Below, piece by piece: positions 22,451 to 46,101 of a stretch of DNA of 64,000 nt. The number at the start of each line of letters is the position of its first letter. Position 1 is the stretch's first letter. The stretch spans positions 80,463,067-80,527,066 of the forward strand of contig OX359245.1 of assembly GCA_947179485.1 (NCBI GenBank), written 5' to 3'. Position numbers and translations under genes: made by a program. The notes beneath the pieces are model-generated. The model saw only the letters and a program-made list of their open reading frames with translations, was not told where the DNA came from and made no database searches. Origin of the DNA: Allacma fusca (lineage: Eukaryota; Arthropoda; Collembola; Symphypleona; Sminthuridae).

Positions 22451-22458
22451 ATTGAAAT

Positions 22459-24432
22459 CAGTGCTGCGATCGGGTCAAGTAATTTCAAAACTTGACCATG
22501 AACTTGACTTGACCACGAAACTTCAAGTAATTTTCAAGACACAACCTGAACTTGATAACTCACGGTCGTGTAATTACTTAACTTGTCAAGTTCAAGTAAT
22601 CAAGTAACTTTTGTAAGACCCGAACTTGATCACGTAGTTAAATTTCCAAATTGACTTGAACTTGACTTGAACTTGATAATTCAAGTTAAGTATCACAAAA
22701 AATTAAACATGGTCACAATAACTTGTCGAACTTGCTGCAGTAAATTATTTCCTTCAGACTGAAAACCAAAACGCATTTAGAAAACAATTTTACTGCTACT
22801 TTTTATTTAAAACCATTCGAGGACTTTGAGCGTATACTGAATACAGTAAAAGATTGATATAAGGGACTATATAATTTATAAAGGAATTTCCCTTATACAA
22901 AACGTCTAAAGCATTGTGTAAATGAAAGTTGGGGTCAAGCAAATGCATCACTGATATTGATACATACATTCCTTATAAGCTGAGCCCTTATAACGGACTT
23001 TCACTGTATATCTGACGAGTTTTACATGGTGTCAAGTTTTATTTAATGTTTATATATGTATATATACATATACCTATTTGAGCATTACCAGTACTCTAAT
23101 TTAAAATTCAATAAACTAGTATTTACTTATTTATTAAACACTTTTTGTAAAGAGCCATCTAAGCTCAATTTATATTGGAACTTATTTACACAGTTGAAAA
23201 TAATAATTCTAAGCAATAATATGAATTATCAAGATAATTCTTTCATTTCATGGAGAAGCCGCTGCAACAACTAACAATGAGCAACGTCTGGTAAACAAGA
23301 TCTTTATAAAACGGACTGGCATACGCAATCTAAAATTACTTGAACTTGACCATGAAATCTCAAGATCATGGTCAAGTTTTTTCTTTCCATTACTTGACCG
23401 TGAACTTGACTTGAGATTCAAGTAAATTTATCTTACTTGTACTTGAACCTGACTTGTCTTAGAATGTCATGGTCAAGACGAGTACGTGCTTGAACTTGAC
23501 CCGAAAGATTCAAGTAAAAATATTGGCCTAGTGGTCGGAACAATTCAATTCAATTCCAAATTTACAATTCAATCCAGTTTGAATACTGAACTGGATTAAA
23601 ATTTGTTTTTCAATTCGGTTCTGTATAAAACAATTCAATTCAATTCAGTTCACTTTATGAACTGAACTGAATTGTAAACCATTTGGTTCGCTCGGGCATA
23701 TTTAAATACTGCAAAGGTGGCTAGGGTGGCGCGTCAGCTAAGGCCATCTCTCCTTACCCTTTTTATAGTATAACATTGAGCTGATTTAAAAAATGCAAAA
23801 TTTTGTAAAAATAAAATTTTGATAATTTTTGAAAGCATTATGCTAGTAGCACTGACTATATAGTAAGTGTAAAAAAATTCCATTGAAATCGGTAGAACAG
23901 TTAGTCGTTTTTGATTTTTTACGTACGAACACGCATTACGATTTCAACCAATAAAGAATAACTTCTACAAGAGAGAGGACTAAAGACCATTCACAAAAAG
24001 TTTGAACAAAATTGGTTTGGAGGAAAACGTCGGGACAAACAGTTCCAAGCATCCACGGACAGCACTATCTTATAAGGGGGCTGGCACCACCCTAAAAATA
24101 TTAACACGTTTTAATGCTGGTTATATTGACGCAAAGATGGTACTAATCTTATCCTTATAATATCGGTTTTGATTCAGCCTGAAATTGTTTTGAATTGGAA
24201 TTCAAAGCAAACAATTCAATTTGATTCAAAAGGTGAACTGAATTATTCGGTTCAGTAAACGATCGAATTGAATTGAAAAATCCCTGAATTGAACCGAACT
24301 TAATTGAATTGAATTGTAAAATTGTAATTTAAACTGAATTGGTCCGACCACTATATTGGCCTACTTGAACTTGACCCGAACTTGAACTTGATTTGAAAAC
24401 TCAAGTATAACTTGAACTTGTCCGCAGCACTG
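22459..24432. mobile_element. Non-autonomous hAT-like element, CAGTGCTGCG type
   Basis: Left terminus CAGTGCTGCGATCGGG and right terminus (reverse complement) CAGTGCTGCGGACAAG share ten identical bases. The element is flanked by a perfect 8-bp duplication ATTGAAAT at 22451-22458 and 24433-24440. CAGTG termini with 8-bp duplications are diagnostic of the hAT superfamily. Both ends are packed with the word ACTTGAACTTGA and its reverse TCAAGTTCAAGT. No transposase ORF is present. The element is itself interrupted by a second hAT-like element (23529-24353), so its own length before that event was about 1.14 kb. Confidence 0.9.
23529..24353. mobile_element. Nested hAT-like element, TAGTGGTCGG type
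   Basis: Termini TAGTGGTCGGAACAATTCA and, from the right, TAGTGGTCGGACCAATTCA match at 18 of 19 positions. A perfect 8-bp duplication TATTGGCC flanks it (23521-23528 and 24354-24361), lying inside the older element at 22459-24432. Sub-terminal regions are made of CAATTCAATT-like words. The middle (about 23830-23935) contains CCATTGAAATCGGTAGAAC, a phrase resembling the tails of many arthropod retroposons, so the interior may hold a further insertion. No transposase. Confidence 0.92.
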
Positions 24433-24539
24433 ATTGAAATTTAGAATAAAAATATAATCAACTCTAATTTGTCAAAAAATGCCCTTATATTGATATATTT
24501 TTAATTGATAATTCATGCATATTAATTAAATTAAATCGG

Positions 24540-25144
24540 CTTTTAATCTTTGTAGAGTTATATTGGCTACTAAATCACAAAAGCGATTGCGTTAGCAAAA
24601 GTAAAAATACAGCTGAATTTAGGAACTGTGTGAAATTACATTGAATTGAATAGGAAGTTGTTCAAAATATCAAATTTTATGGCAAAGGACGTAGTCCAGA
24701 AAATAAACTTCCTCGTACAAAAGAAATATCCACATGAAATGCCTAAGATTGTTTTTTGGGTAAAGCAAAGTCGATTGAAATTAAAATCGGAAATGCGTTA
24801 TTTTGCTTTTGTTCGAAAACTGTACCGAGACAATTGTCCATCGAGAGCGTTTGATTTTAAATCCAAATTGGAGGGATAATATTGGTTTGAATGGAAATTG
24901 TATCTAACACTTTTGTTTCTACCGACACTGCAAGTTCAATATTTTTAAAATAAAAAACACAAAGATGTTGTTTTTAATCGGAATTCCTTCGAGACAACAT
25001 CTTGCTTTGAATCAAAGCTGCATAGTGTTAGCGATGCCATCGACATAAACGCTATACTAATTTCTTTTGTCTTGCAATGTGTAATAATCTCTCAGCTTCG
25101 ACACTTGACACTTGTCGTCCGGGCAGCCGGGTGTTTTCAGGAAG
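24540..25144. repeat. Duplicated block P with two-unit 32-bp repeat, copy 2
   Basis: Homologous to 33770-34470 and 49195-50500. Shared landmarks are GGACGTAGTCCAGAAAATAAAC, AAAGAAATATCCACATGAAA, CCATCGAGAGCGTTTGATTT, TTGTTTCTACCGACACTGCA and ACTTGTCGTCCGGGCAGCC. Only about two 32-bp units (24980-25060) are present here. Confidence 0.75.
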
Positions 25145-25152
25145 GTAAGAAA

Positions 25153-25975
25153 TAGGAGTGGGACTGTTCCGAAATGTTCCAGGATTTCTTGGCATGGTCT
25201 GGTCCTTGAGCCTGGACCGACCTATTTTATATGTTCTCAATGTAGGACCAGGACCATAAGGTCTTTTAGACTGTAGGACCGGAACCATCTAGCCCGTACA
25301 AATTGCTGGAACAGGAACATATGTTCTGTTCCTCAAAATAACTCGGACCAGACCGGAACAGAACAGACCAGACCACTAGGACCGAATAGGTTCATAATAC
25401 GATCACAACATTTGACAATTTAGTTAATGTTTTGAAAAATTTATTTGATTATTTGAAACGAAGTGTAAAATTGTCAATGATAATGAATGAAAATTGTATT
25501 TTTTAAATATTTTCTATTATTTTTACATAAGGAATTTTCCCAAATGTCTTCTTTACTAACCAATACTAAATACTAACGTGTGGCGGACACAATGCATGAT
25601 TCAGGAGGCCAGAATGTTCTCCGCGACACGCTGAATGAGAACTCTCCTTTGTTTTTCATCCAGCATGTAATATTGTATCGTCTCTCGATCGTATCATACT
25701 GTACAATCTAGCAATGCTATTCTATTCGCGGGAATTGGAAATACTTAAATGGTCATCTATCGAATCTGGTCCGACTATTTGAAATACATGCTGGAACGTT
25801 CCAAATGGTCTGGGCCAAACAAAGGACCAAACATTCTGGTCTGTTCTTTGAGCTGGACCAGGTTTAACTGGTCTATCAAGGTTCTTGGACTAGATACATT
25901 TGGTCCTTTCGTAAACAGGGAACAGACCAGAACGGACCAAAATTTCTGGTCCGGATCAGAACAGTCCCATTCCTA
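25153..25975. mobile_element. Non-autonomous hAT-like element, TAGGAGTGGG type
   Basis: Termini TAGGAGTGGGACTGTTC and, from the right, TAGGAATGGGACTGTTC match at 16 of 17. A perfect 8-bp duplication GTAAGAAA lies at 25145-25152 and 25976-25983. The paralogous block at 50340-50630 reads GGCAAGAAATCAAGAAAATT straight across the site, so an empty site is visible in the window. Sub-terminal zones carry many GGACCAG/CTGGTCC words. Minus-strand ORF 25052-25288 crosses the border and is not a gene. Length 823 bp. Confidence 0.95.
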
Positions 25976-26112
25976 GTAAGAAATCAAAAAAACTACAAAT
26001 TGATAGAAATAATTAATAATTGATAATATATATTTTTTTCAAAAATTAAAGAAAGTCATATCGACGGATGTAAAAATAATATTGAGTCGGATATATTTCG
26101 AAAGATCCAAAT

Positions 26113-26978
26113 TAAAGCTACTTGTGGGAGCGAAAAGTTTGACCCCATTTCCGCTCCCAAAAATCGGGTCATCAATATTTTCGGACTCATACCCGAACCC
26201 GTTCCCGAAATACTGGGATCGGGTGCACGAAATCTCAGACAAAATATGTTTAAATCGTTGATCTCAAACCCGATCCCAATCCCGAACCCGGAATCAGATA
26301 AAATTTGCTCCCAATCCCAATCCCGAATCCCTTGAACCTGGACTCATTCCCGGGACCAGTGCAGTTAGTGTAAGCCAATTTTTTTCTTCACGTTTTATTG
26401 ATTTAACAATACTTATACATATATGCATGCGTACCATGCGACAGTAGATGTAGGCACTATTAAAAATGGTCATTACACTAAGAGTCTGGTCTGCGTTGCC
26501 GAAAAAGCTGCACGAAGATTGCTTAAACGATTTCCACCATTGCGTTTTGCAATGACCTATATTTTGCAAGTTAGAGTAGGTGGAAATCACTACTATGCGA
26601 TGCCTACTGACAAAATACGAAACGGCTCTAGCGAAGCCGCGTACGTAAAATTATTATTTCAAATCTGAACACTTTCACGAAGCAAACCGTGCATAGTTTG
26701 TATTTTTTTCTCCGATAGATGGATGTGTAGTTCCCGGGAACGTGAAGCATGTAACGGGTGTTGGAACGAAGATGTTCCCGGTTCCCGACGGGAACACAAA
26801 TACCTTCATCAAGCTTGAACCCGTTCCCATACCCGGTCCCGTTCCCAAAATCCCGGGTCTGCTGACAATGTTCCTGAACCTGGTCCCAAAGAATTTGGGA
26901 ACATTAATTTGACACCCGAACTCGAACCCGTTCCCGAACCCACTTCCCGGATGTACACCGATCCCAAAAGCAGCTCTA
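26113..26978. mobile_element. Non-autonomous hAT-like element, TARAGCTRC type
   Basis: Termini TAAAGCTACTTGTGGGAGCG and, from the right, TAGAGCTGCTTTTGGGATCG match at 16 of 20. Flanks ATCCAAAT (26105-26112) and AGCCAAAT (26979-26986) match at 7 of 8. Paralogues at 34610 (AAAGAACAAGGTCATGCTGA) and 50600 (GAAGAAACCGAATCATACGA) run across the site without the element, giving two empty sites. Sub-terminal words are CCCGTTCCC and CCCGAACCC. An 81-codon ORF (26423-26668) in the core is not recognised as transposase. Confidence 0.88.
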
Positions 26979-26986
26979 AGCCAAAT

Positions 26987-27480
26987 CATACTGAGAAATC
27001 TTTATAATTTTTAACAAGAGGGTTATGATGCTAGACCGTTTATGTGAGAATCAAATGAATCCCAATAAAATTTACTACAAGCTCAGTGCTTAGAATTTTT
27101 TGCCACTAGCACTGTCTTGATTGCCTAAACAAAATATCTGCGCAAAAATTCCTCATGCGTCTTTTTAAAACGTTTAAAAAGCTTTGTACATTCCACCTGT
27201 CTGTTTTTTGTAAACAACCATTCTCACAACGAGACATTGCTTTGAGTTGTATACCCATAGTGTTTATAATATTGAGGCCAAATATGAATGGTCTACAGAA
27301 AAGAATCTCATATTAGAAAAATATAAATCTGGGACTAGTTGAGCTTCGACACGGTCCCAAGAAATGGTGCGTGATAGGGTTTTGTATTATCTAAGGCACT
27401 GGCCCTGTATTAAGTGGGCAGCAACTTTTCCTCAACTAATTCAGTTAACCCTCCCCACGAGTCTATTAGTGCGGATTTAA
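26987..27480. repeat. Duplicated block R1, copy 1
   Basis: Homologous to 34620-35330: AATAAAATTTACTACAAGCT, TTCCACCTGTCTGTTTT, AATGAATGGTCTACAGAAAA and CCCTCCCCACGAGTCTATTA are shared, the last with extended near-identity through GTGCGGATTTAATGGTCCCT. Confidence 0.8.
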
Positions 27481-27739
27481 TGGTCCCTTTGAATCCCCAC
27501 ATTTTACAGCCTGGGTCCTACTCATTTCCTTGCATATACATAAATCCTTCCGAGATTTAACATGATTAATGTCATTCTGAGGAACGAAACGTGCAAACGC
27601 CTTACAAAGGTATGTATATAAATTGTCCGTTTCAACATTGTAATTGATATTGTCCATTTTTTAATATTCAAATTTATAAATTTATAATAAATTATTGTAT
27701 TTTTGGAGTTTCTTCGGTTTTTTGTCCATTCCATCGGGA

Positions 27740-27900
27740 TTTATGGGCGGAAAATGTGTGAATTGTTAAAAAAAAGACTCATGCAAAAGCTTAACACCGC
27801 TAGTAAAAATGGTGAAACTTGGATTGGAAATGTAAACCAGAATTTCTTGTGGGAAATACATTAACAAATTCAGCACTGGCGTGTCCTACTTTGGAAACTT
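27740..27900. repeat. Strongly conserved duplicated block R1b, copy 1
   Basis: About 85-90% identical by eye to 35660-35810 over GGAAATGTAAACC(A/G)GAATTTCTTGTGGGAAAT(A/G)CATT, higher than the surrounding duplicated DNA. Both strands are open in both copies (minus: FVNxFPTRNSGLHF; plus: KCKPEFLVGN). Substitutions fall at all codon positions, so coding constraint is not demonstrated. Confidence 0.5.
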
Positions 27901-28028
27901 TAGGTCGGAAATATTTGCACAAACTGTATGCGCAGGTCAAAAAAAAATTAACAACAGCGAAATGTTTCTCTGAAGTCGATTTACACAAGAAGTTTTGTGC
28001 GAGACACTTAAATGATCTTTTATTTGTT

Positions 28029-28260
28029 TTATATTTCACGTTTTTCTGAATATAAAGTTTCCCAGTGCTTTTGAATAATTTTATAACGGCCAGCACTTTT
28101 ATGATAAAACGACAGCAACCAAAATTTCACCTCCTCTGTAATTTCACAATTATTGGATTTCAAGCAGAAATTCGACAGCCTTGTCCATTTCAGTAAACTT
28201 TCAGGGATTACAGGTCCCTTAATAACTGTGGCATCTTCTGCTGAGGATTTTCTAAACTTC
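28029..28260 (-). CDS. Candidate terminal exon of an unrecognised minus-strand gene
   Basis: A splice-acceptor-like tract (TTTTTAGTTGTAATCTCAG, AG at 28262-28261) precedes 77 open codons including the stop; one leading base would complete a codon split by the intron. The peptide has protein-like composition with KSSAEDATVIKGPVIPESLL and FWLLSFYHKSAGRYKIIQKH. The stop TAA is followed six bases on by AATAAA (28023-28018), a possible polyadenylation signal. The paralogous block at 36295-36390 keeps the acceptor and the DATV codons but has an in-frame stop, so that copy is dead. No upstream exon was located and the family is unknown. It could instead be an exon of a neighbouring gene in the duplicated cluster. 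Confidence 0.35.
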
Positions 28261-28769
28261 CTGAGATTACAACTAAAAATGAATGAAATGAAATCCGTTA
28301 TCATGTATGTTCACCTTTCAGTAAACATTTTATGGAAATGATGGTTACTTCTCTTCGCGTCAGGTAAATGTACTTGACAAGCGGTGCTATTTCTACAGCA
28401 CCGCAACCAACAACCAATCTACTGTTTATCTACTGACCCATTTATTCTAAATAAGCTAATCTAGGAAATTTCCACTGACCTGTACATTTCTTTTATTCAC
28501 ATTATCTTACCACCTAAACCATTGTAAATTCTAACCTTCAAGAAAATGCACATACAATTACTGACGAGCCTTTGACGTGAACACTTCTCTCATTTTAATT
28601 CTCGTAGATTTTGTAAATAAAATATACGCTCGTAGGTCAGAATCAAAACCCAAGCTAACCAAAGCAAAATCTTATTTTATCCATAAATTCCATGTGTCTA
28701 ATTGTGATCAAATTGTCATCTTCACAAAGTACGCATCTCATACTAACACAGCACAACATACAGTCCCTC
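28261..28769. other. No gene recognised
   Basis: Sequence between the candidate exon and block c. A minus-strand upstream exon for 28029-28260 was looked for here and not found. A plus-strand 108-codon ORF (28577-28903) runs into the conserved block and has no recognisable domain. Confidence 0.4.
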
Positions 28770-29139
28770 TAACATCTGGGCTCATCAAAGTACAAAGTCA
28801 TCGTAAAAACGTATTCTTTTTATTCTGCCTCGCATTCCATCAGCCCATATTTCTCCATCTGTCCAAAATCTCAAGTAAGCAATCCAACATACCAAGTAAG
28901 TAATATTTTTCTCACAAATAAACTATTTTAGCTTCACAGATTTATTTTCGTCGTTTCTTTGAAATTCTTGTTCTTCTTCTTTCTGAAGTTTGATTTCAAG
29001 GTAGAGTTCAAGTGTGGTTTCAAGTTAAACATGATGTTTGGCTTTAAGTTCCAGATCAAGTTTGGGATGAACTTTATTGTGAAGTTTGAGATGAAATATA
29101 TGATCAGGTTTGAGGTGAAGTTGGGGATCAAGCTTAAGA
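28770..29139. repeat. Duplicated block c, copy 2 (left flank of large minisatellite)
   Basis: Shares CGCATTCCATCAGCCCATAT with 50980-51000, and CATGATGTTTGGCTTTAAG with copies at 17420, 42510 and 51175. Confidence 0.8.
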
Positions 29140-31195
29140 TTTGAATTCAAGTTAGCGATTTAAATTCTACTTTAAGATTTACATTCAAGTTCGCAATTTA
29201 AGTTTGAGATTTAAATTCAAGTTTGCAATTTAAGTTTGAGATTTAAATTCAAGTTTGCGATTTAAATTCAAGTTTGAGATGTAAATTCAAGTTTGAGATG
29301 TAAATTCAAGTTTGAGATGTAAATTCAAGTTTGAGATTTAAATTCAAGTTTGAGATTTAAATTCAAGTTTGAGATTTAAATTCAAGTTTGACATTTAAAT
29401 TCAAGTTTGAGATTTAAATTCAAGATCGAGATTTAAACTCTGGTTTGAGATTTAAATTCAAGTTTGAGATTTAAATTCAAGTTTGAGATTTCAATTCAAG
29501 TTTGAGATTTAAATTCAAGTTTGAGATTTAAATTCAAGTTTGAGATTTGAATTCAAGCTTGAGATTTAAATTCAAGTTTGAGATTTAAATTCAAGTTTGA
29601 GATTTAAATTCAAGTTTGAGATTTAAATTCAAGTTTGAGATTTAAATTCAAGTTTGAGATTTAAATTCAAGTATGAGATTTAAACTCTAGTTTGAGATTT
29701 AAATTTAAGTTTGAGATTTAAATTCAAGCTTGAGATTTAAATTCAAGTTTGAGATTTAAATTCAAGTTTGAGATTTAAATTCAAGTTTGAGATTTAAATT
29801 CCAGTTTGAGATTTAAATTCAAGTTTGAGATTTAAATTCAAGTTTGAGATTTAAATTCAAGTTTGAGATTTAAACTCTAGTTTGAGATTTAAATTCAAGT
29901 TTGAGATTTAAATTCAAGCTTGAGATTTAAATTCAAGTTTGAGATTTAAATTCAAGTTTGAGATTTAAATTCAAGTTTGAGATTTAAATTCAAGTTTGAG
30001 ATTTAAATTCAAGTTTGAGATTTAAATTCAAGTTTGAGATTTAAACTCTAGTTTGAGATTTAAATTCAAGTTTAAAATTTAAATTCACGCTTGAGATTTA
30101 AATTCAAGTTTGAGATTTAAATTCAAGTTTGAGATTTAAATTCAAGTTTGAGATTTAAATTCAAGTTTGAGATTTAAATTCAAGTTTGAGATTTAAATTC
30201 AAGTTTGAGATTTAAATTCAAGTTTGAGATTTAAATTCCAGTTTGAGATTTAAATTCAAGTTTGAGATTTAAATTCAAGTTTGAGATTTAAATTCAAGTT
30301 TGAGATTTAAATTCAAGTTTGAGGTTTAAACTCTAGTTTGAGATTTAAATTTAAGTTTGAGATTTAAATTCAAGCTTGAGATTTAAATTCAAGTTTGAGA
30401 TTTAAATTCAAGTTTGAGATTTAAATTCAAGTTTGAGATTTAAATTCCAGTTTGAGATTTAAATTCAAGTTTGAGATTTAAATTCAAGTTTGAGATTTAA
30501 ATTCAAGTTTGAGATTTAAACTCTAGTTTGAGATTTAAATTCAAGTTTGAGATTTAAATTCAAGCTTGAGATTTAAATTCAAGTTTGAGATTTAAATTCA
30601 AGTTTGAGATTTAAATTCAAGTTTGAGATTTAAATTCAAGTTTGAGATTTAAATTCAAGTTTGAGATTTAAATTCAAGTTTGAGATTTAAACTCTAGTTT
30701 GAGATTTAAATTCAAGTTTAAAATTTAAATTCACGCTTGAGATTTAAATTCAAGTTTGAGATTTAAATTCAAGTTTGAGATTTAAATTCAAGTTTGAGAT
30801 TTAAATTCAAGTTTGAGATTTAAATTCAAGTTTGAGATTTAAATTCAAGTTTGAGATTTAAATTCAAGTTTGAGATTTAAATTCAAGTTTGAGATTTAAA
30901 TTCAAGCTTGAGATTTAAATTCAAGTTTGAGATTTAAATTCAAGTTTGAGATTTAAATTCAAGTTTGAGATTTAAATTCAAGTTTGAGATTTAAATTCAA
31001 GTTTGAGATTTAAATTCAAGTTTGAGATTTAAATTCAAGTTTGAGATTTAAATTCAAGTTTGAGATTTAAATTCAAGTTTGAGATTTAAATTCAAGTTTG
31101 AGATTTAAATTCAAGTTTGAGATTTAAATTCAAGTTTGAGATTTAAATTCATGTTTGAGATTTAAACTCTAGTTTGACAATTAAATTCAAGCTTG
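29140..31195. repeat. 19-bp minisatellite, locus 2 (about 108 units) with higher-order repeat
   Basis: Monomer TTCAAGTTTGAGATTTAAA, exact 19-bp register through most of the array. Variant monomers with CTCTAG start at 29685, 29875 and 30046 and again at 30331, 30521 and 30692. The second set is offset by exactly 646 bp (34 x 19) in all three cases, so a 34-monomer block was duplicated as one piece. Variants AAGCTTGAG, AATTTAAG and CACGCTTGAG recur at the same offsets. The period is not a multiple of 3 and no ORF crosses it. Confidence 0.97.
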
Positions 31196-31369
31196 CGAAT
31201 ATAAACTCAAAGTTGAGGTTTAAACTCAAATTTGAAATTTAAATTCAAGTTCGCGGTTTCAATTCTACTATGAGATTCAAATTCAAATTTGAGTTGTAAA
31301 TTGAAGTTTAAGATGTAAATTCAAGTGGGAGACAAGGTTTAAGATTTGTATGCAAGTTTGTTTTATTAA

Positions 31370-32470
31370 ACGTTGTGTTTTTATTGGGTTTTTATTACTA
31401 AACTATGCTGAGCTCATGCTGGAGTGATTTCGGGCGAATGTTAAGTCATGTCAGGTGTAGGTAAAGTGCGGTTAAAACATTTTATTTATCTCTTATCTGG
31501 GCAATAGGCAAAGGAATGATATAGGACCCCCTGTATATTCCACAACTAGAATATTCTTCGTTTCAGGTGAATTACAGGAAGGACGGGAGCGCGTGTCCTT
31601 TACAACTTAATCACCGAATTTAATCCCAAACATTTTACCACAAATTCCATAATACCTCAGGATTTTTTTATATCATTCGATCTAATTTCATTTACAAGGT
31701 CACCACGTTAACACATCTCTTTTATTTAACCCATATTTTTCCATCTCTCCAAAATATCCCGCGAACAAACCAACACACCACGGAAACCCGTTTCTCCTCA
31801 CAAGTAGACCATTTCCGATTCACAGATTTTTGCCAGAGTACAAGTTTTACTTAAAATTCAAATTCAAATGTGGCTTCCCGCTTAGCTTCAAGTTGGTTGC
31901 GAATTTTGGAGAAATCGATGGATAATTTTTAGGAAATTGGTAACAAATCTTGCGTAAATTCTTAAAATTTTGTGAAAATTTATGAAATAAATAAGAACAA
32001 TTCGTAGAAAATATTCTGAAAATTGTTTGCAAATTTTGCTGACACTGGGAAATGCTCCCAAAAAATAATTTGACGTAATTGAGAAAAAGTTTAAAAAACA
32101 TTTTTCATTCAATTTTTTTACAGTATTTTAAATTGGTTGATGAGGTTTGCAAAGATTAGGGAAATATTTTGACAAAGCTACGGTGGAAATTTCAATGGAA
32201 GTTGCTGATCAAAAGTTGGTCAATCAAAGAAAAGATCAGGGAATTGAGGGTTGAGTTCATAGTTAAATTAAATTAATAATATCAGGAAATGATTTACAGT
32301 GGAATATGCAAGGTTTTATATAATGCTTTCCTCGTCATTTTGTCTCACCCACTAATTAATTTAGCATTGTGTGAAAACTGAGGAGGTTTGAAGGAGTTTT
32401 TGAACTGACTGAGGAAGAGCTGACAGGGACTGGGAATGTGACAAAAGGAAAGGTCGTTCGAATGTATCGG
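31370..32470. repeat. Duplicated blocks b and a, copy 2
   Basis: 31370-31600 is block b (GAGCTCATGCTGGAGTGATT, CCACAACTAGAATATTCTTC). 31620-32470 is block a (partner 15590-16600). The order b then a here, versus a, c, minisatellite, b at 15.6-18.3 kb, shows rearrangement after duplication. Confidence 0.7.
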
Positions 32471-32698
32471 AGTGGAACAAATTTCCAAGGATCTAAAACA
32501 AAATTTTCTGCAAAGAAGGCGATTCAAATTTGTTTATTATTTGTGTTATTTTCTGTAGACTGGGTCGAGGAAATTGTTTAAAAATATGAGACGCTACACA
32601 ATTTCTCACTGACGTGTGCCCACCCCAAAATGTGAATCGACATTCGGCCTCCATAAATTATTTCTTCTGCGCAAATTTAGTCTCGGAATATTTTTGTG

Positions 32699-32818
32699 TC
32701 ATGAATTAATTCTTAGAGAATCCCTGTGGCTGGAGCTATTCCCATATAAATTTTGCAACAAAAAGTTGTACAAATTATCCCACTTATGGTACCAAATTGA
32801 GGAGTTTTGTTGCTCTTC
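32699..32818 (-). CDS. Candidate terminal exon, unrecognised
   Basis: A good acceptor (GATTTTTGCAG, AG at 32820-32819) is followed in frame by 39 codons and TGA. The peptide (WYHKWDNLYNFLLQNLYGN in its middle) has composition typical of protein rather than of AT-rich noise. No neighbouring exon was found, and no family is recognised. It lies in the same orientation as the gene at 43829-46101, in the region equivalent to that gene's 3' side. It could be a relic. Confidence 0.25.
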   Translation of the reverse strand, partial: EEQQNSSIWYHKWDNLYNFLLQNLYGNSSSHRDSLRINS

Positions 32819-33430: not shown

Positions 33431-33659
33431 TGTCTTTTCATGTTTTTCAATTTATTGAATAATCCCCGAAGAAGTGAAGCATATTTTCCAGATTTTTCAA
33501 AACTTTCAAAAAAAAGAGAAATTTTCTAAACAATGGTTTTAAGATTCTTACGTCAATTTTGGAACTTTGAAAATATTTAATCAAAATTTTGCAACGTTAG
33601 CAAGAATACATTTCTAATTTTTAGAACAATTTACAAATGGAGAGAGACATCGAACATTA

Positions 33660-36390: not shown

Positions 36391-36489
36391 ACAACTGCAC
36401 TGAGAACTGAAAGCTATAATTAATTAACTTATTTTGAAATTTACCACCCAATAAAAACGTTCTTGAATGTTTGAAAAGCGCTCAACAAT

Positions 36490-36762
36490 CAGAGCTGCGC
36501 TCAAGTTCAAGTAGTACTTGACAAGTAACAAGTCAGGTCAAGTTCGGATCAAGTTCGGGATCATGAGCGTTTCTACTTGGTTGAATCGGGTCAAGTTCAA
36601 GTATTTGCTGGATCCAAACTTGGAACTTCGAATCGTTTCTGGTCCAAGTGCAAGCCCACAGAATTGACTTGCAATAAGGACCAAGTTCAAGTTCGGGTCT
36701 GGGCATGGATTTTACTTGAACCCGAACTTGGACTTTCAAGTACCGATTCAAGTAGCCCAGTT
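36490..36762. mobile_element. Possible degraded hAT-like element of the CAGTGCTGCG family
   Basis: The left end CAGAGCTGCGCTCAAGTTCA continues into AGTAGTACTTGACAAG, closely matching the right terminus of the element at 22459-24432. The interior is filled with the same TCAAGTTCAAGT/ACTTGAACCCGAACTTG words. The right terminus is poor, and flanks TCAACAAT and CCAACAGT agree at 6 of 8. Confidence 0.4.
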
Positions 36763-36985
36763 CCAACAGTTGCTTCCTTCGCCCTCGGTTTTTTGCACTT
36801 CTGCAACACACATTCTAGAAACTAGTGATGCCAATGGTCTGGTCTGATCCAGATTTTATGAAGCTGGTCTGATCCAGCGTGTCCGGCCAACTGCCAACCC
36901 CACAACTGCCACCGCGGCCAACTGCCATCACCTCACGAATTCGAGGCCAACTGCCCCTAGGCCAACTGCCTCACAATTCCACAAG
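36763..36985. other. Short-word-rich spacer, no gene
   Basis: Contains two copies of TGGTCTGATCCAG (36840-36885) and four of GGCCAACTGCC (36890-36970). Both look like small tandem expansions; nothing is coding. Confidence 0.5.
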
Positions 36986-37474
36986 TCACATTATAAAAAC
37001 CTATGCTCAGTCACATTTTAAAGTCCTATGCTCAGTCACATGTTACAGTCCTATGCTCAGTCACATGTTACAGTCCTATGCTCAGTCACATGTTACAGTC
37101 CTAAGCTCAGTCACATGTTACAGTCCTATGCTCAGTCACATGTTACAGTCCTATGCTCAGTCACATGTTACAGCCCTATGCTCAGTCACATGTTACAGTC
37201 CTATGCTCAGTCACATGTTACAGCCCTATGCTCAGTCACATGTTACAGCCCTATGCTCAGTCACATGTTACAGTCCTATGCTCAGTCACATGTTACAGTC
37301 CTATGCTCAGTCACATGTTACAGTCCTATGCTCAGTCACATGTTACAGTCCTATGCTCAGTCACATGTTACAGTCCTATGCTCAGTCACATGTTACAGTC
37401 CTATGCTCAGTCACATGTTACAGTCCTATGCTCAGTCACATGTTACAGTCCTATGCTCAGTCACATGTTACAGT
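36986..37474. repeat. 25-bp minisatellite, 19 full units
   Basis: Unit TCACATGTTACAGTC then CTATGCTCAG, in exact 25-bp register from 36986, with a 14-bp partial unit at the end. The first two units are divergent and the rest nearly identical. Three units equal 75 bp and the word lacks plus-strand stops, so all three plus frames stay open (ORFs to 218 codons); these ORFs are artefacts of the period. The right edge abuts the terminal-repeat-like sequence at 37475. Confidence 0.95.
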
Positions 37475-39137
37475 TCAAGGTCTTCACGGATCGGATTCTG
37501 ATCTCATCCGTATCCGATCCTATCCGATCCGGTAAATTCCGGATTTCAAAACCACCCATCCTATCCGATCCGATAGAGTCGGATACCATTTTATAAGAAT
37601 CCGTATCCGATCCGGAATGTTCGGATCGGATATAATTTTCGGTCCGGTCCGTCGGATACATTGACGGATGCATCCGATTCGATCCGCGGATATCCACGGA
37701 TATCCGAACCTTACTTCAAGAAACCGTAAAAGAGATATATGTTATATATTGGGCATGTTTCTAATTTAATCACATTCAAATCAATATGAAAATTTTTAAA
37801 TTCCGGTGTATCGATAATTACCTAGTTAGATGCAAAACCAATTTTGCTTCCAAAAAACTGAAAACAAATAGATTATGCATTCAATATAATTGACGCGACT
37901 TTCCTTGATTCTTTTGTCTCGAATATTTTTCCACCAACTCTTTAAGTTCATGTTGGAAATAAGTACTGAGAAAAATAATTAAACATGTAACAACAAATTC
38001 GCGAAGAATTTGAACAATTGATGCCGGGCACGTTGCATGCGTGTATGGAGGACGGAAATTCTCATGAATGCATTAAAGTTTCAAATTAGAGGTGGGATTC
38101 GGGCTTGACTTCAGGCCCGAACCCGGAAGAAACCCGAACAAATACTCAATTAGCCCGACCCCGCCCGCCAACGGGCTAAATATTCGATATTCAACCCGGC
38201 CCGTTTTATGCACTTTACATTTTCTGAAACCCGAACCCGTTAAAAACCCGGTCTCCAAAATATTTTACAACCCGAACCCGCTAAAAAACCTGATATTTAA
38301 ATAGTTTTAAAACCCGATAAAAATCCGGCTTTTTAATAACAATTAAATCCGCTGCGAAACCTTTATTTACATATTCTATTTTAATGGCATATACTGTCCA
38401 TCCCAATAAACCTGCACACACGGAGCAAAACTTAGCTCTGAAATTTTTTGAAGATAAACTATCAAACTTAAAGGATCGTTTCAAAATGTTTAAGCATGTG
38501 TACGTATTAAATACAGTGAACCATTATTTAGCTTTGCAATGAATATTCACGAAAGCAATGCTTGAACTCTGCGCAACGTCAAATATGCATGCCACATATC
38601 TGTCCTAAATCATATTCTAGTAGAATTGTCGGGTCATTTGTAATTTGTGACCCGCCCAAAACCTGAACTGAAAAATAAATGCAGGCCCAAGCCCGATCTT
38701 AAACCGGTTTCATTGTTTTAGTGCAGCGCGAACCCGGTCGGAGCCCGACGTAAGTTCGTATTTGCAGCCCGAACCCGGCTAAAAACCCGGCAGGGTCGGG
38801 TTCGGGCCGGCCCGAATCTAATAGCCCGCTTCCTGGCCTCACCTCTATTTCAAATCCAAGAATCTCCCTACTATAAAATGCGTGACAATATGATAGCATT
38901 ATTCCTCACGAGAGGGCTCATCTAAAAGACGGATATCCGCGGATATCCGCCGGATCATCCGAAAACACAGAACATCACAAACAACATTACTGCATCAAAT
39001 CCTATCCGAAACAAATACACGGATTCAAATGATGCATCCGGTCTGCCATATGTTTGACGGATAGGATTAATTGTGTTTTCCATCCTATCCGAATCCGATC
39101 CGATCCGAATCCGTCCGGATCAATCCGATCCGATGAA
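37475..39137. mobile_element. Candidate DNA transposon with GGATCGGAT sub-terminal arms
   Basis: The left edge has AAGGTCTTCACGGATCGGAT and the inverted right edge CAGTCTTCATCGGATCGGAT, followed by about 220-bp arms (37484-37707 and 38930-39137) dense in GGATCCGAT/ATCCGATCC words and sharing GGATATCC clusters at their inner ends. No matching target duplication was found; the left end sits inside the 25-bp minisatellite, which may have erased it. A complete hAT-like element (38087-38847) is inserted inside. Confidence 0.45.
38087..38847. mobile_element. Non-autonomous hAT-like element, TAGAGGTGGG type
   Basis: The left terminus TAGAGGTGGGATTCGGGC and the inverted right terminus TAGAGGTGAGGCC share TAGAGGTG. 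A perfect 8-bp duplication TTTCAAAT lies at 38079-38086 and 38848-38855. Both ends are packed with CCCGAACCCG/CGGGTTCGGG words. 761 bp, no transposase. Nested in the candidate element at 37475-39137. Confidence 0.92.
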
Positions 39138-39257
39138 GACTGATAGGGGTGAAACTCAGCTAAAATGTGGGGGAATCCTTCTTCTTATTGCTCTCGACCT
39201 GTCCTTTGATTTAAACCTTCGCGGCTTATTTCACGAATTCAAACCATCCCGGCTTAA

Positions 39258-39400
39258 GCCAAGCAAGTCGGTGGTATATACAACAAGCCGAGAAGCACAG
39301 CGGGCTGAAAGCTGAGACTCTGTCGCAGAGGAGGAGGAGAGCTTTTTCAGCTCGCTCAGCTCGCTTTTCTTCTCGGCTATAAACCAACTGCTTGCAGCCT
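39258..39400. other. Long imperfect fold-back (hairpin) sequence
   Basis: Outer arms AAGCCGAGAAG (39285-39295) and CTTCTCGGCT (39369-39378) pair. Further out, GCCAAGCAAG pairs imperfectly with CTTGCAGCC. Inner arms AGCGGGCTGAAAGCT and AGCTTTTTCAGCTCGCT pair, and the apex CTCTG-TCG-CAGAG (39318-39330) is perfect. Most of a 143-nt segment can therefore fold into one stem. It is GC-richer than its surroundings. It could be a fold-back transposon, a hairpin RNA source or chance decay of a palindrome. Confidence 0.5.
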
Positions 39401-40119
39401 ACTGGAAGGGAAGCTCTCAATATTACGCCATTTTAGATTATCACTTAAAAGCGCTAATCATAATTATTATATAAACATTAGACATAAATCATCAATAATT
39501 TGGATTAAACTAAGACTGGTAGTGAGAAAAACTACGTTCGGTTACAGTACAGAATAATTTGATAAGAGGAGAATTTTAATGACTGAACTTTGTTCACATT
39601 AGTGTGGGATTCTTACCAGGAAAAATTAAATAATCAGTGCGTCCAGTGTCTGAGGCTTCAGTTACAATATTTGCGGTACAACGGATTTATATACAAATTA
39701 TAATAACATAAAAAACATATTTGATCAGCACGGTGTGCTGATCCACTAACAATAAGGAGTGAAGCACCATACAGTGATGCAACAGCAAGATTTAATAACG
39801 ACGTTGGTATTAAATTGATCAAGCGGTTAGTTAAATTCCACGTGTATAGCCAAATATTGAGTTTGGGAGAAACCTTTAGTGGGCCGAAAGCTGTTGTCCC
39901 ATAATATTTTGATGATGAATTGCCAACTACCTATATGAAACGAATTGTTAGTCTTATAGTTAATACTTCGTCTTATATGAGATTACTTTGCCTGGCGAAG
40001 CGGGATATTAATATTAAGCCTTCTCGACAGGCCTTGATAAGAGATCTATTGCCATTTACACTTTTATTATTTACACTATTTATTTACACAAGTAATTGCT
40101 CCTGTGCGAAGCACGGGGC
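39401..40119. other. Unassigned; possible Helitron-like hairpin at 40101-40117
   Basis: No ORF is supportable. A perfect hairpin CCTGTGC-GAA-GCACGGG (40101-40117) is followed after seven bases by CTAGT (40125-40129) and T, the arrangement of a Helitron 3' end. No matching 5' end (TC) was identified. A second palindrome GATCAGCAC...GTGCTGATC lies near 39724-39742. Confidence 0.3.
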
Positions 40120-40883
40120 TGTTACTAGTTAATTATACCACACATAGCAAAATTAATTCCTTATTGACAAACCATTGTTTCAATTTGGGAAATCTTCCCG
40201 CGTCCAGGATGAAATTTATTAATCACACAATTATTACATAAATACAACTCAACTTATTTTACCAATGGATTTTCTAAATCAAACTCTATTATTATTAATT
40301 ATAATTATACAAATGTATCAAAGTTTAATTACCTTATCTTCAATAGGCACAACTTACAACTAACAATTCTTTGTCAAGTTCTTAGATCTAACGGTCTTTA
40401 CAAAATGTACAATTGATATTATTTTCTGTCTCTGTTCTAATATTCCCCTATTATAATTAGCTACCTGTAGATGGATTAACTCTCCATACTACCAAGACTT
40501 AACTAATCCTTAGGTCCCTTTACTAGACTAAAGCTAAGTTCTTTACTTCTCAACTACTTAAATCTTCAAAGTACAAATATAGAAATATAAAAGAGAGAGA
40601 TACAAACAGGTAGGATAACTTTCCCATCCTGTAGGGCCTGAAATATCTAAGATGTTTTTAGGAGAAGTCCAGCAGAGCTGTCGCCCGCTTCAGGACCAGA
40701 TATTCAGTGGTTCTTCAACTCTTTTTACTTTCCTATTTATACTTTTAACTTCCCTTATGTATTAGCGGCTTGAGATTTTCATCCGCAGCCGGTATTTTTA
40801 TGACTAGATTTAATCTCCGAGGACAAAATCTCAATCAGACTTTTTCCGAGAGGCTCACCGACATTCTGGCGCCGAAAGTAACA
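40120..40883 (-). mobile_element. LTR-like segment, possible solo LTR
   Basis: The segment is bounded by a 7-bp inverted repeat TGTTACT...AGTAACA. Read on the minus strand it starts TGTTACTTTCGGCGCCAGAA and has a TATA-like GTATAAATAGG about 140 bp in (plus 40732-40742). No flanking 4-6-bp duplication and no adjoining primer-binding or polypurine tract was found. Read on the plus strand, TGGCGCCGAAA at 40867 resembles a tRNA-Phe primer site, an alternative interpretation that would place an LTR end near 40863. Either reading implies a decayed LTR retroelement piece. Confidence 0.3.
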
Positions 40884-41829
40884 TAAATACCTATTTTGGA
40901 CAGTTAGTTCTTTTTCCAAAATCTCTACCACATGATAATACATAAGTGTCCAGGTATTGATTTTTACTGTCGCCTCTTTTATTGCGAATGAGTTAATTTT
41001 TGTCTACTCCATCGTAACTTTACGACTTCCTTATTCCCTCTACTTAATCTCGGTAAGTTGCCTTAAGACGCTAACCTCGGAGGACAAAGCAATAACACGT
41101 GTCACCGATTTTGCCCTCTCCTCCGGACCTTCTAGAACATTCTATTCCTATTCCTTAACTAAGAATATCCTCCACCAATATTTATTTTACTCAAGGAATA
41201 AGATCCTCCAGAATCTTCTGTGGCTAAGTTTCTGATTTTCCTGTTCATCGCATTGATTAATTTTAGTCCACGCCCCTTTTAACTATAGGGCTCTTATTCT
41301 TATTTAAAAAGTACGTAACAAGACCTTTAGGTCAAATGATGAATTTGAAGTAGATTTACGAGTGGGAGCTTTTTATTGAGTATAAACTGACTTGGAATTG
41401 CAGAGGATATTCAAGCTCTATTTCAAGTAGGGACTCGAGAAATTTCAAGTTATTGATTAACAGTTCAAGTGCAACTTGAATTTTAAGTCAAGTTTAAATT
41501 TTAGCTGAAGTTTCAGTTTAAGGCTAAGTATGAGTGTTAGATGAAATGAAGGTTTTAGGTCAAGTACGAGGTTCAATCGAAGATGGAATTTAAGGCCAAA
41601 TATTGTATCTGAAGTCGAGTATTTATTTCAAGCCAAATTCCGGTTAAAAATCTATTAAATATTTGAATCCCAATGTTAGCTTAAATAATTCAAGTTTACT
41701 ATCGAGTGTAAGTTCAAGTTTGATATCAAGTATAAGTTTTGTTACATGTTGAGATCTCGCTGGTGATCTGACAGGAAAAATTATTTATATTGTAGTCGTT
41801 TGATCCCATGCTTTTAATTATTGTACCTG
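40884..41829. other. No gene recognised
   Basis: 40957-41235 is a 92-codon plus ORF with no recognisable motif. From about 41400 the DNA turns into degenerate TTCAAGT words related to the minisatellite flanks. Confidence 0.4.
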
Positions 41830-43790
41830 AAATCCAGATTTAAACTAACGTTGAGTTCTGGGTCAAGTGTGGCTTTAGAAGTTCAAGGTCAAGTAACTTG
41901 AGGCTCGAACTTGATGCATTTTTACACTTGAGCTCTCGCAAATTACAACCATTTGAAATTGCTTGAATGTGATAAGCTGACTGGGTTTAAAATATTCATA
42001 CTACTATTTTACGAGATGCGCAAAAGAGTTTGGACTTGGAGATTTGGTTTTAGTGTCGAGAGAAGGTTTGGCTTAATGGCTTTGAATAATGAATATGTAA
42101 AGACTTTCCATCTCCGGCATTATTAATCAGAGGCGGAGTTTTCACGTCTTTGCATTCAAATTTCCACAAAATCCCAAATTATCGTGATTTACACGAGGTC
42201 TGGAAATGAAGTGGGGGCGGCCCAGTCACAATTGGACCCCTGTTAATTTCTCAATATCATTCAATTCATTCGCATTTACAGGGTCACCGCAAATACGCAT
42301 TTAGTTATGCCCCGCATTTCATCAGCCCATATGTTTTAATATCTCCTAAATCTCAAACCAGCAATCCAACATCCCTCGAAAAAACACTTGTTCTCACAAG
42401 CAAACCGTTTCCACTTCACAGAATTATTTTGGTCGCTTCTTTGAAATTCTTTAATTTTTAGGCACACTTTGACTTCAACTTGGATTTCAAGTATAGTTTC
42501 AATGTTTGCATGATGTTTGGCTTTAAGGCGACGTGCGAGTGTAAGTGTGAAATCAAGTCTTAAATTAATTTTATTATCAAGTTTTGAATATCGTACATGA
42601 TCAAGTTTGAGATCAAGTTGGTTTGCAAATTTGATAATTCAAGCTTCAGATTTGAATTCAAGTTTCAGATTTGAATTCAAGTTTCAGATTTGAATTCAAG
42701 TTTCAGATTTGAATTCAAGTTTCAGATTTGAATTCAAGTTTCAGATTTGAATTCAAGTTTCAGATTTGAATTCAAGTTTCAGATTTGAATTCAAGTTTCA
42801 GGTTTGAATTCAGGTTTGAGATTTAAATTCGAGTTTGAAATTGAAGTTCAAGTTTGAGGTTTGAATTTAAGTTTGGGATTTAAGTGAAAGTTTGAGATTT
42901 AAATTCAAGTTTGAGGTTGAAGTTCAAGTTTGAGTTTGAATTTAAGCTTGAGATTTAAATTCAAGTTTCAAACTGAAGTTCAAGTTTGAGATTGAAATTC
43001 AAGTTTGAAATTTGAATTTGGTTTTTGAGTTCAAGTTTGCAGATGCTTGTGTTATTAAAGGATTTTATTAATTAACTGTGGTGAGCTCAGGATGGAGTGA
43101 TTCCTGACTAATGTTAAGCCATGTAAGGTTTAGGTCAAGCGTAGGTCAAGGGTGGTTAAAGATCTTCAATCATCTACTCTCTGGGGAATGGGTAACACGA
43201 CGTTTTTGGACTCCCTGTATAATCCGCAATTTGAATATTCTTTATTTTAGGAGAATTGCACTATTCAATTATTTGAATATACCTAAATAGTATTTATTTT
43301 TTTAAAAGCACAAACGTTTACTTGGTAAAAATAATTTTATTATTTAATATTAATGGTGAATATCTCATTGATTTTAAATTATTTTTTTGTCTCGTTACCG
43401 TTTTTGGAAACAATGCGAGAAGATATTTTGAAAACTAGGGAAACAAACGTAACGAATTCAGGAGTAATGTCGATTCGTAAAAATTTGTTTATCAACCTTT
43501 GCTGGCAACGAATCGGAAGTGCTGCGTACCTGAAAATGACTTATGACCGTCGAATGATTTATTGTGAAGTTTGAGTTCAATTGCCCTTTCGTATTTTTCT
43601 GGTTTTAGAATCTACACTCGAATTAAAAAGAATGATTTAATTTTTAAATGTCAAAATCATGTTAGGATTTTCAAGCAACTTTTCGGATTTAAAAAATTTC
43701 ACGATTTTTAGCAAAATGCGTTTATAATTTTTGGAGCAAATAAGAAATGGTAAAACTCAAAAGGTTTTCTTGGTTTCTTGCAATTTGTCA
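41830..43790. repeat. Duplicated blocks S, c, 19-bp minisatellite, b, d and e, copy 3
   Basis: S 41830-42150 (partner 14460-14740); c 42160-42600; about ten units of TTCAAGTTTCAGATTTGAA (42645-42835) and degenerate units to 43030; b 43040-43270; d 43270-43480; e 43580-43790. This is the most complete version of the unit and lies immediately 3' of the intact gene on the minus strand. Confidence 0.8.
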
Positions 43791-43828
43791 ACCCTGCATG
43801 ACCATCAAAGTCAACATTACATTACAAA

Positions 43829-46101
43829 TCATACAAAATTTACTATTGCATAGTCCAAGCGTGGTTTCTTGGCTTCTGATTGGTTCCCGGTGATTTTGTA
43901 ATCATCATTTTCTGATTCACCAGTTGACCCAGAGTTGATGAATTCCAAGAGTTTCAGCGCCAATGTTGGTTTCCGATTACAATTTTCTATCTTTTGTTGG
44001 AATTCTTTCAAAGGAATTTTGGCGCCAAAGAAATCACACCTAAATAGCAATTCAATTAGTTTCAATCAATTGCTATACTTTTTTGTGGGGGTTTAAAATG
44101 GACGTCAAAGAACATGACAGTTCATGCAAACACTATCTAAATATCAGTGCTGGGACCTCTACTCTACTGAAAATAGAGGTAGTGGTAGAAATAGAGTAGG
44201 GTCGTTAAAATCAGCAAAACATCAGTAGAGGTGTAGTAGAGGTATACAGAAATTCTAGCATAATAGAGGTAGAGGAAAATAGTAGGCTAATATAAAATTA
44301 AGTGAGTAGAGGAGCGTTATTTAGGGTCCCAATTTAGATACCAGTAGTAGGAGTAGAGGTAGAACAGTACATCGTATTCTAATGATAATGATAGAGTAGA
44401 GGTAGTAGTAGTAGTAAGCTTATAGTAATAAGAAGTAATACATAAATTTACCATTTCCCTGAACACCCAATTTAATACTCGGAATGACATCTGGTGTCCG
44501 TATATACAACCTCACTTCACTTCATCATTACAGTAACTCATGAACGTGTTTTGTAGCTGCAAATGCAATAGAAGGGAATTGGAAATACATAACCAAATGT
44601 CATAACCACGTAATTCCCTTTATAAACACGCTAGTTTTTAAGCTTTTATCTAATTTAGCTTGTGGTAATTTTTTAGCTGTACTAATGGGGTACTGATCTT
44701 ATTGTATTCAATAAAACCTCAATATTAACGTTAAACTAGCAGAAATCAGTGATCTATTTTTTCTTGCTCACAATTACTCATGGAAAATGACCATTTGAAT
44801 ACAAACGAGGGTCAAAGTTTTCGGGGCAATATGCAATTCGAATTCCGATATCCAGCCCTGGTAGAAATTGAATGATAATTCAGATTCTTAATGAACCGTT
44901 TATAGGTACAAGTGAGGACTATTGGTTCTAACTTCATTACTGTTTATATTACATTCTGCTACTTTATTCTAAAACACCATGAATTTCTCTGTAAATACTG
45001 TATTTTTTTTGGTAGAGGTAGTGGTAGCTAGCAGAGCCAAAAAAAATTTCGAGAATAGAGTAGAGGTAGAGTAGCGACAATAACTTTAACACATAATAGA
45101 GTAGAATAATAGCTAGCAAGTCAGATAAACATAATAGCAGTAGAGGTCCTCTATTCTATCCAAAACCGCTGGTAGAGTAGAGTGTCATAGAGGCGGCAAC
45201 TGTTGAAAAGTACAATAGAGTAGAATAGAATAGCGCTTGCTGAAACGCCCATCACTGCTAAATATATTACTATATTTGTCAATACGCTGTTTGTATAGAG
45301 AGAGCTCATTTATGAATAATGCAGTGACAATTTATTTTTAAAACAATTTTCCGTAATTCAAAATTTATTGTCAAAGGAGAACGGAAACTCAAAATTCAGG
45401 AAATACTTACGCCCACCAGAGATACTCGGGATATGTTTTGATTTTCTGTTTTAATCGATTGAATGATTTCTCAAACGATGGCTCCAAACTGACGTTGAAT
45501 TCGTCGTAAATCTTTTCGTCCGCATCAAATAAGCAAATCACGACGGTTGATAGACGCAAATATGGAATCAAATCCGATGACTAGAATTGAAATCAATTGT
45601 TTAAGCATTTTGAAGCAGAAAATGAAACCTTTTTAAATTACTGAAGGAGTAACAAAACGAAACTAACTAGTTCAAATAAAATATTTTCCAGCCAGTGTTT
45701 TCCTTCGCGAATGAATGCATTTACAAAATCTCGAGACTTTGCAAATGTTTCAACATTTCCTGGGGTTTTCCAGACTGTCGATAAATTCCCTTAAATATTA
45801 CAAAATTGAATCAGAAATAATTAAAAATTCATGGGATACTTTGCACGAGTTAAAATTATTAGGACGATGAATTAAAAAATGTTTCATGTTTTATAAAATC
45901 GAAATATTCAAAATGCATTCTGTGCCAAATGTTTAACCGATTCAACTTGCCTAAGTAGTGTCCAAGTAATTCAATGTCTTCATACTTGTATTCCTGTGTA
46001 TTATCTCTGAAGTTTAGCGCGGCAGTAAACCCATCCACACCCCACTTATTGAAGATTATATCAAAAAAGCGAACTGCTCTATCTTTTCCAGGGCAGTTTT
46101 C
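43829..46101 (-). CDS. Spliced gene, last four exons; weak CARD-like resemblance, family unknown
   Basis: Exons on the minus strand: 46101-45951, 45789-45668, 45580-45411 and 44039-43829 (stop TGA). They join in phases 1, 0 and 2 to give 217 codons without a stop, which chance would not produce. Introns: 161 bp with a GC donor (AG|GCAAGT), 87 bp (GTTAGT), 1371 bp (GTAAGT); acceptors end TTTAAG, TTCTAG and TATTTAG. The first visible exon starts in phase 0 after TGTTTTAG and has no start codon, so upstream exons are missing from view. Exon 1 carries RAVRFFDIIFNKWGVDGF and EDIELLGHYLG, reminiscent of the last helices of a CARD death-fold; exon 3 has SSDLIPYLRLSTVVICLFDA. The C terminus ends in a charged tail with KKPRLDYAIVNFV. 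The CARD idea is weak inference. A hAT element fills most of the last intron, and a relic paralogue of the last exon lies at 33660-33785. Confidence 0.75.
44145..45257. mobile_element. Non-autonomous hAT-like element in an intron, CAGTGMTGGG type
   Basis: Termini CAGTGCTGGG and, from the right, CAGTGATGGG match at 9 of 10. A perfect 8-bp duplication CTAAATAT flanks it (44137-44144, 45258-45265). Sub-terminal zones consist of TAGAGTAGAGG and GTAGTAG words. At 1113 bp it makes up most of the third visible intron of the gene; without it that intron would be 250 bp. No transposase. Confidence 0.93.

Follow-up and report, generated by a model that had tools for sequence, protein, structure and literature searches.

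What reads the short words that crowd the ends of miniature hAT transposons? The question is raised by a stretch of 64,000 nucleotides from the collembolan Allacma fusca (hereafter the window), which lies at 80463067-80527066 on contig C1 of the 392.7-Mb assembly over which our genome searches ran. The window holds six elements, labelled E1 to E6, which are non-autonomous (miniature) hAT elements of the ordinary hAT plan. We hold with good confidence that their words are predicted sites of the BED zinc finger of a same-family transposase, and that finger and word diverge together. In the mechanism proposed, the N-terminal BED zinc finger would bind the subterminal words and the same transposase would also cut at the conserved tip. 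The many sites per end would allow several fingers of a multimeric transposase to hold one end, as in Hermes. Families would diverge by joint change of finger and word, the tip changing more slowly; a small element would therefore depend on the transposase that reads its word. Binding, the multimeric grip, coevolution and the exclusivity of each word are what we infer; the observations behind them are given below.

Window elements carry the labels E1 to E7, their coordinates count from the first base of the 64,000-nt stretch, and no strand is assigned to them. E1 (22459..24432) has tips CAGTGCTGCG, the word ACTTGA and an 8/8 duplication of ATTGAAAT (22451-22458 and 24433-24440); its length is 1,141 bp once its insert and the insert's duplication are subtracted. 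That insert is E2 (23529..24353), with tips TAGTGGTCGG, the word CAATTC inverted between the ends and an 8/8 duplication of TATTGGCC (23521-23528 and 24354-24361). E3 (25153..25975) has tips TAGGAGTGGGACTGTTC, the words GGACCA/GGAACA in both orientations and an 8/8 duplication of GTAAGAAA (25145-25152 and 25976-25983). In E4 (26113..26978), with tips TAAAGCTAC and TAGAGCTGC and words ACCCG/GGGAAC, the duplication agrees in 7 of 8 positions (ATCCAAAT/AGCCAAAT; 26105-26112 and 26979-26986). E5 (38087..38847) has tips TAGAGGTG, words AACCCG/CCCGA and an 8/8 duplication of TTTCAAAT (38079-38086 and 38848-38855), and is nested in a further element at 37475-39145. Finally, E6 (44145..45257) has tips CAGTGCTGGG and CAGTGATGGG, the word CCTCTAC (= GTAGAGG) and an 8/8 duplication of CTAAATAT (44137-44144 and 45258-45265). 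A preliminary description had listed six elements with CAGTG/TAG termini and 8-bp duplications. All six are present, five with perfect duplications and one with 7/8, and short terminal inverted repeats of the CA/TA-G type (CAGTG/TAG) are found throughout except at the left tip of E4, which reads TAAAG. The nesting of E2 in E1 and of E5 in 37475-39145 was missing from that description. Hermes, a hAT element of Musca domestica, likewise makes an 8-bp duplication.

A strict scan of positions 11301-56000, asking for an 8/8 duplication, an inverted repeat of at least 8/10 over the first 10 bases and Y-A at both tips, returned six places: E1, E2, E3, E5, E6 and 16854-17476. E4 stays outside this count because its duplication is imperfect. 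When the scan was run on 12 dinucleotide shuffles, nine gave no place and three gave one. The place at 16854-17476 is without a word array (p 0.955) and probably a chance hit; we rejected it as an element.

The arrays themselves were tested by counting the commonest 5-mer, on either strand, in the terminal 200 bp at each end against 200 shuffles. All six elements exceed all 200 shuffles, so that subterminal repeats are present at both ends of each, and the statement that the outer ends are dense arrays of one short word per family is borne out. Left and right counts are 12+15 for E1 (ACTTG), 9+12 for E2 (AATTG), 5+9 for E3 (GACCA), 6+5 for E4 (ACCCG), 8+5 for E5 (ACCCG) and 9+9 for E6 (CTCTA). 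The margin is narrowest in E4, with 11 occurrences where the shuffles give up to 9; here 36/200 shuffles reach the both-ends measure at k=6 and 4/200 at k=7. The words are 5-7 bp long, family-specific and densely arrayed at each end. They had also been described as inverted between ends, which does not hold in general: inversion is clear in E2 only, the orientation is mostly direct between the ends of E5 and E6 (in E6, CTCTA read inward occurs 2 times on the left and 8 on the right, its complement 7 and 1 times), and E1, E3 and E4 show both orientations at each end. A same-orientation version of the test left E4 and E5 within the shuffles on the both-ends measure and E3 and E6 weak; since the words are thus not simply inverted, it was repeated with counts taken on either strand. 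Over positions 11301-56000, a scan by word density recovered one or both ends of each of E1-E4 and E6, an array at 36490 and both ends of 37475-39145. It also picked up tandem satellites, while E5 and a candidate at 11929 fell under its threshold.

All six families are multi-copy. The left end of each element was searched against the genome and 40 first-look candidates were scored per family, the window's own copy included. The candidates numbered 574 for E1 (scored at 89-100% identity), 728 for E2 (94-100%), 216 for E3 (91-100%), 241 for E4 (89-100%), 349 for E5 (94-100%) and 129 for E6 (95-100%). For E2, 16 further weak opposite-strand matches lie inside the same copies. The right-tip pattern of E4 (at most one mismatch) occurs at 165 sites, against 0 for the reversed control.

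Are there transposases to go with these words? The hAT C-terminal dimerisation domain PF05699 gave 860 first-look candidates in the genome; 150 were scored, and all of those listed lie over the cut-off. We assembled 41 transposase loci, namely 20 fetched at 9-9.5 kb, L029, and 20 stretches of 1.4 kb lying downstream of further PF05699 matches and selected by Pfam match pattern. They are called transposase-bearing rather than intact because introns or damage interrupt many of the reading frames. A tip pair with a duplication was accepted in 15 of the 20 loci fetched at 9-9.5 kb and in none of L009, L016, L022, L024 and L025. Duplications are 8/8 at L023, L029, L014, L010 and others, and 7/8 at L012; for L027 the second-ranked tip pair was preferred, as it agrees with the 7/8 pair of L012. 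Around another transposase element at L027 (3703-7640), a 20/20 inverted repeat (TAGTGCCCCTCATGGG) and an 8/8 duplication were observed.

Among these loci, E6 has a partner of 4,900 bp (L023, 1465-6364) with the duplication TACGGTAA, the same tips and word, and ends that are 80% and 82% identical. The E3 partner of 3,906 bp (L029, 417-4322) has the same tips and word and is 81% identical at both ends. E1, E2 and E7 were compared with their transposase-bearing relatives at one end only. E2 is 89.5% identical over 190 bp to the transposase-associated end of L045, and E1 is 73% identical over 223 bp to that of L048 (tip CAGTGCTGCG) and 69% over 224 bp to that of L036 (tip CAGAGCAGCG). E7, the element at 37475-39145, has a partner of 4,472 bp (L014, 1417-5888) with the duplication GATATAGA, tip TAAAGGTCTTCA and the same word. 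Tip and word are both shared with a transposase-bearing element in E1, E2, E3 and E6 (4/6) and in E7; for E4 and E5 no such element was found.

The word differs by family while the architecture is constant, as had been proposed; this holds for E1-E6, and the transposase-bearing elements are built on the same plan. Both word tests (k=5) were passed by 12 of the 15 transposase-bearing elements with accepted tips, and the both-ends test was failed by three ATAACG elements (L012, L017, L027). By inspection, arrays are seen in 18 of the 20 further 3' stretches (weak in L037 and L049) and are absent from L038 and L042. Some 20 distinct words stand at transposase-bearing ends among the 41 loci, including CCTCTAC, TATCCGA, AACCGA, CAACAA, GAACAA, GTACAA, CGTTAC, AACTGAA, ATAACG (weak), GGACCA, CGAGTAC, GATTCA, CTGAAAC, ACTTGA, ACCGAA, ACTCGAA, ATTTGA, CAATTC, ACCTGA, GGGAAC and CGGGC (weak).

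Replication slippage or local duplication might generate arrays of this kind as a side effect, to be copied along with the family and with no binding role. Short and regular steps in some arrays (5 bp in E2, 12 bp in L040) and satellites with similar TTCAAG words in the window would fit such an origin. We nevertheless regard it as improbable, as several arrays have irregular spacing and mixed orientations, word counts are higher at the ends than in the interior windows compared, and the words are conserved beyond neutral expectation. This conservation was measured in 11 end pairs of 9-43% divergence, comparing word positions with other positions and word coverage with a neutral simulation. Bases inside words are 90% identical over the pooled pairs and other bases 66%; word positions are the better conserved and word coverage exceeds the simulation in 11/11 pairs (p 0.016 or less; weakest p 0.016).

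The words are very probably, judging from the sequence of elements and transposases, BED-finger sites read by the transposase of their own family. A transposase profile built from six pieces of L013, L028, L015, L020 and L017 (A1) has matches to chains of Hermes, the best at E 4.8e-21, and to the BED domain of ZBED1 (E 0.0016). zf-BED lies above the Pfam cut-off in 10/10 joined exon pairs. Of ten transposase pieces scanned singly, three have the call (two overlapping pieces of L013 and one of L026). In several members of the clade an intron lies between the first zinc cysteines and the helix exon, and the recognition helix was not found in the fetched stretch of L030, L039, L048 and L049. L051, a fetched copy of L031, is frameshifted. 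The Hermes BED finger reads bases via the same helix, with many AAG(T/C) sites near the tips; base contacts are described from residues 64, 66, 67 and 70 and from the backbone of 63 and 65 (PMC10368747). Residues of the A. fusca transposases were mapped to Hermes numbering by this analysis via the first zinc histidine.

Word similarity was taken as the cosine of 5-mer excess, and its partial rank correlation (Mantel) with BED-helix similarity was computed given catalytic identity; L026, without catalytic cover, was dropped and L027 was not entered. The partial rho is 0.38 (p 0.0002, n=17) and 0.31 (p 0.015, n=14, without near-duplicates), and in wider sets 0.25 (p 0.003, n=25) and 0.20 (p 0.024, n=21). 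The converse, word against catalytic identity given helix, gives 0.24, 0.22, -0.06 and 0.02 (n=17, 14, 25 and 21). Word similarity therefore follows BED-helix similarity beyond catalytic kinship, modestly. Where two elements agree in all four residues that correspond to Hermes contacts, their word similarity ranks at roughly the 95th percentile or higher (7/7 pairs, three of them near-duplicates). In 26 pairs with 50-80% catalytic identity and different contacts, word similarity ranges from 0.08 to 0.88. A close pair with differing words is L045 (helix GGTSSLKNHLTRRH, CAATTC) and L034/L041 (GGTGSLKNHLDRSH, GTTTCA).

Several results weigh against reading the words as sites of the own family's finger. 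Neither the genome copy and tip searches nor the 41 loci yielded a transposase-bearing partner for E4 or E5; L047 and L049 have words like theirs (GGGAAC, CGGGC) without their tips. A 3.06-kb copy of E4, suggested as the autonomous partner by the distance between its ends, was rejected, its interior being another nested array element with no transposase. In the Pfam scan zf-BED was not called in the L028 and L023 pieces containing the putative helix. Aligning repetitive arrays may favour word-to-word matches, a bias that could touch the conservation figures of the most diverged end pairs and less so those of the six pairs at 9-20%. As to word and finger, in the set of 17 the word still correlates with catalytic identity once the helix is given (0.24, p 0.014), the sample is small, the pairs are non-independent, and 12 of the 17 elements were picked by Pfam match pattern. 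With catalytic identity given, contact residues of the helix on the whole do no better than its non-contact residues (0.15 vs 0.39, n=25; 0.14 vs 0.28, n=21; 0.31 vs 0.35, n=17; 0.29 vs 0.24, n=14), the latter being equal or better predictors in three of the four sets. When the word is predicted from an element's nearest neighbour, the helix and the catalytic domain are equally good guides (mean cosines of 0.37 and 0.38, against 0.16 over all pairs); the neighbour is top-ranked in 9 and 8 of 22, respectively, with L011, L034 and L028 excluded from this test. Alternatively, the words might bind a host factor or act in transcription or silencing, with the transposase reading the tip only. We consider a host role highly improbable, because the words vary from family to family within one host, along with transposase type and BED helix, and because the fingers of Hermes and Tgf2 are described as binding subterminal repeats (PMC10368747, PMC4890040).

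In a stretch shared at 86% between L067 and L052, GGGTAC/TACGGG-type arrays occur inside a long E4 copy and beside a transposase; this is perhaps a further word family, to which no partner is assigned.

The match between word and transposase could also be common descent, the differences being drift in a loosely read site, with several transposases moving several classes. This is an unlikely account but one to be taken seriously: it is favoured by the equal prediction from helix and catalytic neighbours, and by the TTC/GAA core that the words of the E2-type clade have in common. It sits poorly with the persistence of the partial correlation with the helix and with the same clade's word cosines down to 0.10 at 50-69% catalytic identity. 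Positional evidence points both ways. In the E2-type clade the word changes between related elements, and in an alignment-free register test the distances of word cores from the tip were compared between L045 (CAATTC) and other E2-type ends, with shifted offsets as control. L045 and L034 (GTTTC) have 6/7 distances in common (18, 28, 42, 88, 108 and 118; other offsets at most 4). Ties with shifted offsets were obtained for L041 (4/6, best other 4) and L031 (3/5, 3), and L035 (2/6, 3), L037 (1/3, 3) and L032 (0/6, 2) fell below them. Only L034 stands out clearly, and same-register sites between differing words that appear without alignment for a single pair speak for common descent. Against it, in 14 aligned pairs besides L041-L034, word columns of different families coincide above all 140 circular shifts in six pairs and above 139 in one; the other seven are less distinct (7-106 of 140 shifts reach them). 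Indels or alignment bias may account for the gap between the two tests. We tentatively suggest that the A. fusca hATs form a natural series of BED fingers paired with their words, some set apart by few residues and few bases; all sites within an end would then change jointly and keep their register.

Taken with these results, the preliminary proposal that each word is a recognition code for its own transposase is upheld in part: partners exist for four of six elements and word and helix are correlated, but the contact-residue and nearest-neighbour tests show no advantage, and a readable recognition code is not shown.

How does this compare with known systems? Ac/Ds of maize, with the word AAACGG, is a single system in a plant host and is set beside A. 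fusca by description only. Its non-autonomous elements are reported to share tips and some subterminal repeats with the autonomous partner (PMC3260210). Hermes is alike in having short inverted tips with numerous subterminal repeats, and a transposase with a BED finger and a hAT dimerisation region; it differs in having the word AAG(T/C), against some 20 words in one genome here, and the window elements are non-coding. Tol2 and Tgf2 of fish share short tips and many subterminal repeats but represent one family with a different word; for Tgf2, 17 and 18 repeats at the ends are described, and good binding is reported to require a zinc finger (PMC4890040). The Mar MITEs (miniature inverted-repeat elements) of Drosophila, also compared by description only, are likewise hAT-derived miniature elements (PMC3517528). 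Also comparable are the CGGBP and hAT zf-BED proteins, for which hAT-derived BED and Hermes-type domains with diverse motifs are described; four hAT-encoded proteins have motifs that match the subterminal regions of the elements encoding them (PMC8097297). Family-specific hAT BED motifs that match their own subterminal regions are thus, from what that source presents, prior knowledge (PMC8097297). That work used protein-binding arrays across species, while here specificity is inferred from DNA in one genome, with related transposases that have different words. The useful addition is that related fingers and their words come as a series within a single genome. Among the titles and abstract openings searched on hAT subterminal repeats, BED fingers, coevolution or a recognition code, and Collembola hATs, the same claim was not found, which is a weak statement.

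The window also holds weaker candidates, which had been thought to follow the same plan. This is supported for E7 (37475..39145, word ATCCG), a hAT element interrupted by E5 and recognised by homology, its left part being 81% identical over 484 bp to the transposase-bearing L014 element; no target-site duplication was found for it. A 25-bp minisatellite of 19 copies (37000-37474) abuts its left tip and may have erased the duplication. It is supported in part for 36490..36761, one or more ACTTG-word ends of an E1-family relative (tip CAGAGCTGCG): the array is strong (19 against a shuffle maximum of 6) and matches a tip in L015 (93% over 104 bp), and the right boundary and duplication are uncertain. 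The candidate at 11929..12408, with GGTAC words, is marginal (word p = 0.02), and no duplication was found for it.

Repeats of other kinds surround the elements. Satellites of 19 bp (TCAAGTTTGAGATTTGAAT type) at 17521-17960, 29128-31326, 42636-43018 and 51458-51576 have letters like hAT words (TTCAAG, AATTC) and may have grown out of transposon end arrays. Positions 1-11262 are a tandem satellite with about 8 copies of units of about 1,326 bp and internal 33-bp and 26-bp repeats. Tandem repeats of 32 bp with similar units lie at 49634-50330 and 19121-19221, and the long open frames in the former are probably spurious. At 56656-63998 a 2,202-codon open frame ends in a CCHC zinc knuckle and is followed by a retroviral-type aspartyl protease; this is an LTR-type (long terminal repeat) retroelement whose gag-like part is unusually long and which is truncated where the window ends.

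To our knowledge, few hAT-finger sites are known in detail. With some 20 transposase-tied words in one host, and close pairs among them, the base choice of BED fingers becomes directly testable. If the register switch is true, a recognition code for BED fingers could be derived from the sequences of this set, and a recognition helix on its own exon, separated by an intron from the first zinc cysteines, may make it easier for families to swap specificity. The words could account for the coexistence of many hAT families in one genome, none mobilising the elements of another.

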